Source: Amycolatopsis sp. GM8 | GTDB lineage: Bacteria > Actinomycetota > Actinomycetes > Mycobacteriales > Pseudonocardiaceae | Direction of reading: 5' to 3' | Assembly: GCF_021653975.1 (NCBI RefSeq) | Contig: NZ_JAJKFK010000008.1 | Location: 1-64,000 of the forward strand | DNA length: 64,000 bases | Shown here: piece after piece, positions 9,927 through 13,007 of the stretch | Numbering within the stretch: the first letter of the stretch is position 1 | Layout: every line of letters begins with the position of its first letter | Translations under genes and position numbers: made by a program | Notes under the pieces: model-generated | Told to the model about the DNA's origin: nothing | What the model saw: the letters and a program-made list of their open reading frames with translations, nothing else | The model's database searches: none

Positions 9927-12900
9927 ATGCCGCGGGTGCGTTTTGTTGCCGACCTGCACATCCACTCGAAGTACTCCCGTGCCTGCAGCAAGGATTGCGA
10001 TCTCGAGCATCTGACGTGGTGGGCGCGCCGCAAGGGGATCACCCTCGTCGGCACCGGGGATTTCACGCACCCGGCGTGGTTCGAGCATCTGCGCGAGAAC
10101 CTCGTCCCCGCCGAGCCCGGCCTGTTCCGGCTGCGTGAGGACCTCGACGCCGAGATCCAGCGCCGCCTCCCGCCGTCGTGCGCCGCGTCCGAGGTGCGGT
10201 TCATGCTGTCGGTCGAGATCTCCACGATCTACAAGCGCGCCGAGCACACCCGCAAGGTGCACCACCTCATCTACATGCCGGATTTCGAGGCGGCCGAAAG
10301 GTTCAACCAGCGGCTCGGCAAGATCGGCAACCTCGGTTCCGACGGCCGTCCGATTCTCGGGCTGGACTCGCGGGATCTGCTGGAGATCACGCTGGAAAGC
10401 GGCGCCGGGTCGTATCTGGTGCCCGCGCACGTGTGGACGCCGTGGTTCGCCGTGCTCGGGTCGAAGTCGGGGTTCGACGCGATCGACGACTGCTACGCCG
10501 ACCTGGCCGAGCACGTCTTCGCGCTGGAAACCGGGTTGTCGAGCGATCCCGAGATGAACTGGAAGATCAGCGCGCTCGACAAGTACCGCCTGGTCAGCAA
10601 TTCCGACGCGCACTCGCCGCCGATGCTGGGGCGCGAGGCGACCGTGTTCGACACCGACCTGGACTACTTCGCGGTGAAACGGGCGCTGGAAACCGGCCGC
10701 GGGCACGCCGGGTCGCTCGAGTTCTTCCCCGAGGAAGGTAAGTACCACGTGGACGGGCACCGCAAATGCGGGGTCCGGATGGAGCCGGGGGAGACCCGGG
10801 AACGCGGCGGGTTGTGCCCGGAATGCGGCAAACCGGTGACGGTGGGCGTGCTCAGCCGCGTCGAGGATCTGGCCGACCGCGCCGAAGCGATCCGGCCGGC
10901 GGGCGCGCCGGAGTTCACGAGCCTCGTGCAGCTGCCCGAAATCATGGGCGAAATCCTCAGTGTGGGGCCGAAGAGCAAGAAGGTGCTCGGCGAGATCGAC
11001 AAGCTCACCGCGGCCTTCGGGCCCGAGCTGGTGATCCTGCAGGACGTGCCGGTCGCCGACCTCGAGTCGCGTTCGCCGCTGCTGGGTGAGGCGGTCCGGC
11101 GGCTGCGGCGCGGCGACGTGATCCGGGACGCCGGATACGACGGCGAGTACGGCGTGATCCGGCTGTTCGAGCCCGCGGAGCTGAAGCGGTCCACGACGAT
11201 CGGGCTGTTCGACGACGGCCTGTTCGCGCCCGCACCCGAACCGGCGAAACCGGCACGCAAACCCGTCGCCGCGCCCGCTCCGGTCGTGGAACCCGTTGTG
11301 CCGCAACCGAAACCGAGCACGGGTTCGCTGCTCGACGGGCTCGACCCCGAGCAGCGCGAGGCGGCCGGCAGCGGCGGCGGACCGCTGCTGATCATCGCCG
11401 GTCCGGGCACCGGCAAGACGCGGACGCTGACCCATCGCATCGCGCATCTCGTGTCGGAGCGCGACGTCGCGCCGGAGCAGTGCCTCGCGATCACGTTCAC
11501 CCGCCGCGCGGCCGAGGAGATGGCGGAGCGGCTGGCGGCGCTGGTGCCCGCGCACGCGGCGAAGCTGACCATCGCGACGTTCCACTCGCTCGGCGTCCGC
11601 ATCCTGCGCGAGCAGCACGACCGCGCGGGGCTGAGCGCGGACTTCGGGATCGCGGACCAGGCACGGCAACTGGAGATCCTGGCGGAGGTCAGTGAGGACG
11701 CCGACCGGCGCGCGCTGGCCGAGATCTCGCGCAACCGCCGCACGGGCACCCCGGACGACCTGGCCGAGCGGTACACGAAAGCGTTGCGGCAGCAGGATCT
11801 CGTCGACTTCGACGATCTGGTCGCGTTACCGGTCGCGCTGCTCGAAGCCGAACCCGAACTGGCCGCCGCCTACCGCGAGCGATACCGCTGGATCAGCGTC
11901 GACGAGTACCAGGACGTCGACGAACAGCAGTACCGGCTGCTGCGGCTGCTCGCGCCGGGCGACGGGAACCTCACCGCGATCGGCGACCCGGACCAGGCGA
12001 TCTACCGGTTCCGCGGCGCGGACGTCGGGTTCTTCCTGCGTTTCCAGGAGGATTTCGCGCCGGCCAGGACCGTCCAGCTGACCCGCAACTACCGGTCGAA
12101 TCCGCATGTCCTGGGCACCGCCCTGCGGGCCATCGCGCCCGGCACGCTCGTGCCCGGGCGCGAGCTGCGGCCGTGCGGCGAGCACGGCGACGCGCGCGTC
12201 GGCCTGCACCACGCGGCCGGCGACCGGGCCGAGGCGGCGTTCGTCGCGCGCACGATCGACCAGCTGCTCGGTGGCGCGTCGTTCCACTCGCTCGACAGCG
12301 GGCGGGTGGTGTCCGACGGCACGCAGGGCCTCGGGTTTTCGGACTTCGCCGTGCTGTACCGGACGGACCGGCAGGCGCGGGCGCTGCTCGACGCGTTCGC
12401 ACAGGCCGGGTTACCGGTGCAGAAACGTTCGCACGACAGGCTTCTGGAGCGATCCGGGGTCGAGGAGATCGTCGCCGAGCTCGCCCATCCGGGCGCCGGA
12501 ACGACGGTGGCGGAACGGGTCCGCCGCGCCGCGGACGCCGTGCTCGCCCGCGGCGCCGACGAGGCTGTCGTGCACACGGCGGCCGAGCTGCTGAAACCGC
12601 TGGCGCTGCGGTGTGACGACCTGGAGCAGTTCCGCACCGAGCTGTCGCTGGGCGTCGAGGTGGACACGTGGGATCCGCGGGCGGACCGGGTTTCGCTGCT
12701 GACGCTGCATGCCTCGAAGGGGCTGGAGTTCCCGGTCGTGTTCGTCGTCGGGTGCGAGGAGGGCTTGCTGCCGCTGCGGTGGCCGGGCGCCGAACCGGCC
12801 GAGGAGGAGCTGGCCGAGGAGCGGCGCCTGCTGTTCGTCGGCATCACCCGGGCGCAGCGGCACCTGTACCTGAGCCACGCCGCCGAGCGCTCGGGCCGGA

Positions 12901-13007
12901 AAGTGGCGCGTTCCCGCTTCCTCGCCGACCTCGGCGACGGGGTCGAGCAGATCGGCGACGCCGTCCCGCGCGCCCGTCCCCGCGAAACCCAGCTCCGCCT
13001 GCTCTAG
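9927..13007 (+). CDS. EndoQ-type PHP endonuclease domain fused to a UvrD-like SF1 helicase
   Basis: A 1026-residue two-part protein. Residues 1 to about 430 match the PHP-fold family of endonuclease Q (TIGR00375), whose studied members cut DNA 5' of deoxyuridine, hypoxanthine and abasic sites. Probable metal ligands are DLHIH (D9, H11, H13), TGDFTHP, VEIST, KVHHL, PAHVWTPW and SNSDAH, and a four-Cys zinc site (KCG...CPECG) lies near 285-307. After a Pro/Ala linker (about 432-465) comes an SF1A helicase: Q motif near 471, Walker A GPGTGKT near 491, TFTRRAAEEM, DEYQDVDE near 657, IGDPDQAIYRFRGAD, LTRNYRSN and GITRAQRHLYL near 972. At about 555 residues the helicase is shorter than UvrD. All key motifs look intact. 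A repair enzyme that unwinds and incises at deaminated bases is the natural inference. Confidence 0.9.
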   Translation: MPRVRFVADLHIHSKYSRACSKDCDLEHLTWWARRKGITLVGTGDFTHPAWFEHLRENLVPAEPGLFRLREDLDAEIQRRLPPSCAASEVRFMLSVEISTIYKRAEHTRKVHHLIYMPDFEAAERFNQRLGKIGNLGSDGRPILGLDSRDLLEITLESGAGSYLVPAHVWTPWFAVLGSKSGFDAIDDCYADLAEHVFALETGLSSDPEMNWKISALDKYRLVSNSDAHSPPMLGREATVFDTDLDYFAVKRALETGRGHAGSLEFFPEEGKYHVDGHRKCGVRMEPGETRERGGLCPECGKPVTVGVLSRVEDLADRAEAIRPAGAPEFTSLVQLPEIMGEILSVGPKSKKVLGEIDKLTAAFGPELVILQDVPVADLESRSPLLGEAVRRLRRGDVIRDAGYDGEYGVIRLFEPAELKRSTTIGLFDDGLFAPAPEPAKPARKPVAAPAPVVEPVVPQPKPSTGSLLDGLDPEQREAAGSGGGPLLIIAGPGTGKTRTLTHRIAHLVSERDVAPEQCLAITFTRRAAEEMAERLAALVPAHAAKLTIATFHSLGVRILREQHDRAGLSADFGIADQARQLEILAEVSEDADRRALAEISRNRRTGTPDDLAERYTKALRQQDLVDFDDLVALPVALLEAEPELAAAYRERYRWISVDEYQDVDEQQYRLLRLLAPGDGNLTAIGDPDQAIYRFRGADVGFFLRFQEDFAPARTVQLTRNYRSNPHVLGTALRAIAPGTLVPGRELRPCGEHGDARVGLHHAAGDRAEAAFVARTIDQLLGGASFHSLDSGRVVSDGTQGLGFSDFAVLYRTDRQARALLDAFAQAGLPVQKRSHDRLLERSGVEEIVAELAHPGAGTTVAERVRRAADAVLARGADEAVVHTAAELLKPLALRCDDLEQFRTELSLGVEVDTWDPRADRVSLLTLHASKGLEFPVVFVVGCEEGLLPLRWPGAEPAEEELAEERRLLFVGITRAQRHLYLSHAAERSGRKVARSRFLADLGDGVEQIGDAVPRARPRETQLRLL

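Follow-up and report, generated by a model that had tools for sequence, protein, structure and literature searches.

The 64,000-nucleotide stretch analyzed here, which we call the window, comes from Amycolatopsis sp. GM8 (contig NZ_JAJKFK010000008.1) and carries on its forward strand a gene that joins an EndoQ-type endonuclease to a UvrD-type helicase. From the residues and motifs that it keeps, we read its product, with moderate confidence, as a clamp-tethered repair nuclease-helicase for deaminated bases. The gene is a single open reading frame (ORF) at 9927-13007 (+), with an ATG start, 1026 codons plus a stop, and no internal stop. The ORF and the domain matches agree with the first-pass annotation of this DNA, which had described an EndoQ-like and UvrD-like fusion in one frame of 1026 residues. 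Chance or misassembly is an unlikely origin of the fusion, because 79 complete fusions, the window protein included, occur in separate assemblies.

The loci used for comparison were listed with an alignment of six EndoQ halves as the query (five taken from fusions, the sixth truncated by a contig end); the listing holds the best 80 of at least 585 matches, and the share of fusions in it is not a frequency. Selection for likeness to the fusion gave 87 loci for examination and, once single EndoQs, genes cut by a contig end and broken frames had been left out (L019, L024, L043, L044, L046, L063, L072 and L073, of which L046 is a fusion whose end is missing), the 79 complete fusions. Among 29 further stretches, 13 long ones proved to be fusions and 10 short ones single EndoQs, and six distant matches (L150-L155) stand outside the tree. 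The alignment of EndoQ domains holds 104 sequences, 92 fused and 12 separate. The gene and its parts are laid out as follows.

9927..13007 (+): EndoQ-UvrD fusion gene, 1026 residues, from the ORF reading and the domain matches.
9948..11174 (+): EndoQ (PHP) domain, residues 8-416, from the phmmer alignment to PfuEndoQ 5zb8, with catalytic and base-pocket residues kept.
10758..10826 (+): predicted zinc site of the EndoQ domain (His-Cys3), H278-x2-C281 ... C297-x2-C300, invariant in 104/104 aligned EndoQ domains.
11175..11324 (+): Pro/Ala-rich linker, residues 417-466 (about 50 residues), between the matched domains.
11205..11210 (+): L427-F428, degenerate copy of an internal clamp-like motif, from the alignment of 45 fusions.
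11325..12926 (+): SF1A UvrD-type helicase, residues 467 to about 1000, with subdomain 1B somewhat short and subdomain 2B much reduced, from Pfam and PDB matches.
11397..11420 (+): helicase motif I (Walker A), AGPGTGKT, residues 491-498; AGPG[TSA]GKT in 79/79 complete fusions.
11901..11915 (+): helicase motif II (Walker B), DEYQD, residues 659-663; DE[YF]QD in 79/79, a pattern that also served to select the 79.
12990..13004 (+): C-terminal QLRLL, predicted beta-clamp-binding motif, residues 1022-1026, from conservation and shuffled tails.

In a search of the PDB (phmmer, E 0.001), the N-terminal half matched three structures, all of them EndoQ (5zb8, 7k30 and 7k31; best E 1.6e-46), and by these matches it is an EndoQ. 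Its alignment to PfuEndoQ 5zb8 runs in two stretches, residues 8-69 and 105-416, with residues 70-104 unaligned. The identity that the first-pass annotation had named as the alternative, a PHP polymerase or phosphatase, was rejected, since the PDB matches are to EndoQ alone and, among the PHP families in Pfam, the half gives just a sub-threshold match to PHP_C (E 4.7e-4, 20.1 versus 21.3 bits). The metal ligands were found to be intact, as had been noted at first pass: H13, D45, E97, H112, H168, D227 and H229 are invariant in 104/104 EndoQ domains and H11 is present in 103/104. We presume these eight residues to be the PHP metal ligands; three of them pair with Pfu E76, H84 and H139. The latter are the catalytic zinc ligands, and G169 and S171 are residues of the base pocket, according to the available part of a review. 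E97, H112, H168, G203 and S205 pair with these five Pfu residues and are invariant in 104/104 domains, the pairing of E97 with E76 having been made by inspection in the stretch that phmmer left unaligned. A zinc site of four cysteines had also been annotated; the four-ligand site stands and is kept in 104/104 domains, but its first ligand in the window protein is His278, where PfuEndoQ has Cys, so that the predicted structural zinc site is kept as His-Cys3 instead of Cys4.

The C-terminal half matches Pfam UvrD-helicase (PF00580, 3.4e-72) and UvrD_C, as well as PcrA/UvrD/Rep structures in the PDB, and the Pfam scan found no further domain at the helicase tail. As annotated at first pass, all SF1A motifs (I-VI) are found in the window protein. 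Simple patterns for motifs I, Ia, II, III, IV, V and VI matched 79, 78, 79, 74, 77, 73 and 77 of the 79 complete fusions, respectively, motif II having been a selection criterion. The score against the PcrA equivalog is 390 bits versus a cut-off of 911.2, and the cut-offs of the UvrD and Rep equivalogs are also missed. The span that holds 2B, from the 2A motif "LYRT" to motif V, measures 115 residues in the window protein versus 226 in the host paralogue L002, which we take to be PcrA-like; it is 155 residues in the unfused helicase of locus L156 and 108-163 residues in the 70 of 79 fusions in which it could be measured by pattern. The phmmer alignment of the window helicase to PcrA skips the 2B part. 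The segment from Walker A to Walker B, which holds 1B, has 168 residues versus 192 and 193 in the two host paralogues, L002 and L003. According to the part of a review that was available (PMC13238157), 2B is autoinhibitory and Rep is activated by its deletion. From the small 2B and this behavior of Rep, it is likely that the helicase of the fusion would be active as a monomer or under the control of its partner domain. The first-pass description of the enzyme as processive is unsupported, and the much reduced 2B suggests altered regulation instead. A separate feature of the helicase half is a conserved insert, GGxSxxSxDxGR, present in 56/79 fusions and in the unfused L156 helicase; in the window it lies at 12270-12305 (residues 782-793, GGASFHSLDSGR), where the aligned PcrA structure has a gap.

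The strict ending Q[LM]xL[FLIM] closes 69/79 complete fusions, compared with a mean of 0.0115 per 79 when the last 40 residues of the tails were shuffled. We give the conservation of the motif across phyla more weight than this comparison, because shuffling keeps composition and ignores relatedness. The other ten fusions end in QLELL+2, QLSFL, QFRLW, QLSLL+12, QPKLI, QPRLL, QETLF, QQRLF, QLRLV and QVTLF. Thinning left 45 fusions, all of which keep Q1022 and L1025, and a relaxed motif, Qx(1-2)[LFMI][LFIMWV] at most four residues from the end, is found in 88/90 closed fusions, those from other phyla included; in the two exceptions, L030 (QLSLL) and L134 (QQDLF), the motif is placed further upstream. 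Among the separate EndoQs in the tree, 8/12 carry the motif at the end or at most four residues away from it (L019, L130, L135, L136, L137, L147, L148 and L149). The clamp consensus has been given as QL[S/D]LF or QxxLF (PMC12309361, in the part available). Archaeal EndoQ is stimulated by PCNA, to which it binds through a C-terminal box (dissociation constant 55 nM in T. kodakarensis), and the authors of that work pointed out a beta-clamp consensus in bacterial EndoQ homologues (PMC4858679, likewise in part). The first-pass annotation had described EndoQ as acting alone or with PCNA and had missed the terminal motif; from that motif we revise the statement to probable tethering of the window protein to the bacterial beta clamp through QLRLL. 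A second, internal motif follows the EndoQ domain. An anchor for it was recognized in 74/92 fusions, with an LF-like pair in 65 of the 74 and a full QxxLF in 24, mostly in Micromonosporaceae (QETLF in Micromonospora relatives) and also in the distant loci L142 and L143; two distant loci have QVDLF and QEALF. Across the 45 fusions L427 is invariant and F428 is kept in at least 90%.

It is plausible that the fusion would nick DNA and then open the nicked strand. Members of the UvrD family are 3'-to-5' translocases, and EndoQ enzymes characteristically incise 5' of dU, dI, dX and abasic sites. Judged by the residues it keeps, the EndoQ domain would flip out a uracil, hypoxanthine or abasic site and cut 5' of it, leaving a 3'-OH and a 5'-phosphate. 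The fused UvrD motor would load at this nick, and it may then track on the intact strand along the downstream duplex and peel away the 5' end that bears the lesion; the loss of much of 2B, if the behavior of Rep lacking 2B is a guide, would let the monomer unwind without the dimerization needed by UvrD-family enzymes. The C-terminal QLRLL motif would dock the protein onto the beta sliding clamp; filling-in would fall to a clamp-bound polymerase and trimming to a flap or 5' nuclease. Double incision would also be possible, because the host has EndoV. Related steps are described in print, each in the available part of its source: the nick made by PfuEndoQ has a 5'-phosphate and a 3'-OH, so placed that the downstream fragment carries the lesion at its 5' end, and a helicase step is drawn, together with EndoV, in one of two models of the EndoQ pathway (PMC4357722); in a review, EndoQ nicking is followed by a helicase; and UvrD has been described as displacing the nicked strand in mismatch repair and excision repair.

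The two halves of the fusion are mostly co-inherited. Their trees, built for the 92 fusions, agree, with a distance correlation of 0.945 versus a maximum of 0.243 in 200 permutations, and they share 37 bipartitions, of 47 and 59 with support of at least 0.9 in the two half-trees; because of this agreement, we conclude that the halves mostly travel together. The pair also occurs unfused. At L156:3966-7090, from the same phylum as Polyangium, EndoQ and UvrD are encoded by two genes; stop and start overlap in the sequence ATGA, provided that translation begins at the Met preceding TEGLL, and each product has a clamp-like tail: QQISLFGGAA (QISLF+4) for EndoQ and QPQLKLF (QLKLF) for UvrD. We regard L156 as an unfused form of the same pair, which may be either the state before fusion or a fusion that has split. 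Neither this gene pair, nor the terminal clamp motif, nor the much reduced 2B was in the first-pass annotation.

EndoQ without a helicase also appears close to fusions. In Streptosporangium subroseum (L043:4689-6050), an EndoQ gene without a helicase in the stretch examined stands beside a fusion clade (support 0.897), and this locus probably lost its helicase. The separate EndoQs that have no terminal motif (L043, L131, L140 and L146) each group next to fusions in the tree, where their support ranges from 0.147 (L131) to 1.0 (L140), and L130, a separate EndoQ that keeps the motif, pairs with a fusion at weak support (0.327). Deep support in the EndoQ tree is weak, and the number of fusion events is therefore not fixed by it. 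As an observation apart, the EndoQ gene of L043 ends and short repeats of the cttgcaggcccac type come after it.

A search for the same fusion across Actinobacteria, suggested at first pass, showed that it recurs there and beyond. The loci listed include Amycolatopsis, Pseudonocardia, Saccharothrix, Micromonospora, Frankia, Thermobifida and Polyangium, together with metagenome-assembled genomes (MAGs) labeled Binatia, Poribacteria, Acidobacteriota and Pirellulaceae, labels that may be wrong. The closest relative among the best 80 of at least 585 matches is from Amycolatopsis alkalitolerans, with 89% identity over the EndoQ half and 90.5% over the helicase half. Whole genomes were scanned with TIGR00375 as the query and frame length as a proxy for fusion. 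In the phylum of the window, 9/296 genomes matched: five in frames of more than 1000 residues (that of the window included), the remainder being frames of 499 and 527 residues (the latter cut by a contig end) and two weak matches. In its family, 43/120 genomes matched, and all 43 best matches lie in frames of 991-1274 residues. The phylum of Polyangium (L080) gave 10/140 genomes, with eight frames of more than 1000 residues and two of 446-448; that of the Pirellulaceae MAG (L099) gave 20/149, with nine of more than 1000 residues, ten of 439-557 and one fragment; and that of the Acidobacteriota MAG (L066) gave 21/149, with two of more than 1000 residues, sixteen of 366-471 and three weak matches. 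The first-pass annotation had tied the fusion to high-GC DNA. This tie did not survive the comparison, and high GC as a requirement was rejected: 9/92 fusion loci lie below 60% GC in the fetched stretches, with a minimum of 34%.

Several observations weigh against a clamp-tethered nuclease-helicase. The EndoQ half scores 152.7 bits (E 1.8e-44) against TIGR00375, a hypothetical equivalog, and misses its curated cut-off of 326.6 bits. The separate EndoQs of L156 (148.6 bits) and L019 (188.8 bits) miss this cut-off as well; it was passed by 0 genomes in all five genome scans and by 2/3 of the matching control genomes. The reduction of 2B is not specific to the fusion, the corresponding span measuring 128 residues in the host paralogue L003, which is presumably UvrD2-like. 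With respect to the clamp, the separate EndoQs L043, L131, L140 and L146 have no terminal motif, the six distant TIGR00375 matches L150-L155 have no full motif (L152 and L155 end in LF), and the internal copy in the window protein retains LF and has lost its Gln. The EndoQs of L043, L131, L140 and L146 also have no adjoining helicase in the stretch read, which argues that the motor is dispensable in these loci. Finally, the gene is accessory in its own family (43/120 genomes) and missing from three genomes of the same genus, and loss of the fusion might be silent, because the host also encodes three PF03167 (UDG family) matches and one EndoV. With these host genes, a unique route for deaminated bases is not supported.

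Other readings of the same features have to be set beside the clamp-tethered nuclease-helicase. The motor might serve as a delivery device that translocates on single-stranded DNA, rides the replisome or removes proteins and so brings EndoQ to deaminated bases, with unwinding after the nick being minor. The clamp motif suggests an association with the replisome, the reduced 1B and 2B make the unwinding power uncertain, and members of the UvrD family are translocases as well as helicases (PMC13238157, in the part available); the helicase motifs are kept, however, and a nick made by the same protein would be a natural loading site, and we consider this role unlikely. It is improbable, in our judgment, that the nuclease half has kept the EndoQ fold and drifted to another lesion or structure, and so to a different repair pathway. 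Its distance from PfuEndoQ, including the unaligned residues 70-104, the His-Cys3 zinc site and the TIGR00375 score below the cut-off would fit such a drift, but the partners of Pfu E76, H84, H139, G169 and S171 are invariant in 104/104 domains, and the EndoQs of Bacillus and Methanosarcina keep their specificity, as far as the available parts of those reports go.

We give slightly less credence, and regard as likewise improbable, a role in anti-phage defense against phages with uracil-containing or otherwise modified DNA. The layout of nuclease and UvrD helicase resembles Gabija, the helicase half scores against GajB models, the presence of the gene is patchy and accessory, and antiviral roles for bacterial EndoQ have been raised as possible in the accessible part of a review. 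On the other hand, the EndoQ half matched 0 PADLOC models, and the neighboring genes are ordinary, both in the window and among the few neighboring ORFs identified elsewhere. Matches to GajB are expected of UvrD helicases in general. No match was found in plasmids at 1e-100 or in phages at 1e-5, and a pattern scan of IMG/VR matched 34 stretches, none of which was confirmed.

Returning to the clamp-tethered nuclease-helicase, we compared it with known systems. With the EndoQ proteins (PfuEndoQ, TkoEndoQ, MacEndoQ and Bacillus pumilus EndoQ) it has in common the domain match, the paired catalytic and base-pocket residues, the zinc site and a C-terminal clamp motif, which in most archaea is a PCNA box (PIP). 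TkoEndoQ and PfuEndoQ, by the available parts of their descriptions, have 421 and 424 residues and no motor, whereas the window protein adds a whole UvrD helicase; its terminal clamp motif sits after the helicase and not at the end of the EndoQ domain, and the first zinc ligand is His. The SF1A motifs and the UvrD-helicase and UvrD_C domains are common to the fusion and the UvrD/PcrA/Rep helicases, and, compared with the PcrA-like paralogue, the fusion has about half the 2B span and a QLxLL end. Gabija likewise pairs a UvrD helicase, GajB, with a nuclease, which is the OLD-family GajA; the PADLOC comparison did not place the fusion, with its unmatched EndoQ half, in this or another defense system. 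We know of no helicase part in EndoMS/NucS of Actinobacteria. Like EndoQ, that enzyme is a repair endonuclease shared with archaea, and a C-terminal motif mediates its activation by the sliding clamp, but it is a RecB-type nuclease for mismatches (PMC8228993, in the part available).

Published models of the step after the nick, in the parts of the sources available, assign it to strand displacement by the polymerase or to an unnamed helicase. The fusion would couple nicking and strand removal, which the archaeal models assign to separate proteins, and together with the unfused pair it points to a dedicated helicase after the EndoQ nick and predicts contact with the clamp. Fused to a helicase, EndoQ is present in many genera of Actinobacteria and also in genomes or MAGs that carry the labels of other phyla. 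We found no description of an EndoQ-UvrD fusion in the literature on EndoQ, UvrD/PHP fusions and the clamp, although subscription papers, such as those on Bacillus pumilus EndoQ and on structures, may mention it; in agreement with the first-pass annotation, the literature searched, which left subscription papers largely outside, held no biochemical study of the fusion. A more ambitious proposal, which we put forward only tentatively, is that the protein is a single-protein, clamp-tethered excision machine, in which EndoQ would nick 5' of the deaminated base and a 2B-poor, self-activated UvrD would peel the lesion strand. In some relatives the two clamp motifs, one per module, could fill both protomers of one beta clamp, and the whole might constitute a bacterial pathway, independent of glycosylases and mismatch proteins, that spans several phyla and has so far been overlooked.

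In the window, the fusion gene is preceded by an SMC_N/RecN-like gene (presumably recN), steA (SteA) and mctB (MctB), and downstream lie, in convergent orientation, a luciferase-like gene and aroA (EPSP synthase), followed by pyrG (CTP synthase), a NUDIX gene and an integrase-family, XerD-like gene (which we take to be xerD). In three genomes of the same genus without the fusion (G387, G408 and G359), mctB is followed by the luciferase-like gene within 100 bases, and this stretch gave no match to either half of the fusion. Loci L025 and L163, whose helicase halves are 90.5% and 85.8% identical to that of the window, carry the fusion between mctB and the luciferase-like gene as well; there the DNA ahead of it differs. 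Window positions 9519-13130 form a presence/absence spot, empty in the three same-genus genomes and occupied in L025 and L163 by the fusion together with variable DNA; because it is empty in the former and filled in the latter, the fusion is an accessory gene. An ORF of 108 residues (9585-9911) stops 15 bases ahead of the fusion gene and has a sub-threshold match to SnoaL_2; it is not a fixed partner, because it was seen in 1/84 loci searched (L163).

The scan of 9400-10050 for sigma-70 promoters and terminators found 0 of each, and the DNA-damage promoter PafBC/RecA-NDp (consensus with at most two mismatches) gave 0 matches in the window versus 0.95 expected. The SOS-type pattern TCGAAC-N4-GTTCGA (at most three mismatches) matched 82 times in the window versus a shuffle mean of 34.7, and 0/100 shuffles reached 82. 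The matches are scattered through the window, one of them, with three mismatches, lying ahead of the fusion gene at 9718-9733, inside the 108-residue ORF; we give the excess no weight for the fusion gene.

Elsewhere, the neighbors found in the window recur at 1/80 named loci, within the flanks examined. The clusters of recurrent neighbors mixed true genes with shadow frames and were partly identified: of nine recurrent ORFs scanned by Pfam, four matched (ClpC-like, GNAT, AAA_16 and EamA) and five did not. An upstream ORF of one cluster, ClpC-like by Pfam in L076, occurs at L047, L049, L052, L055, L060, L075 and L076, and a short ORF upstream in these seven loci and in L048 is presumably Lsr2-like.

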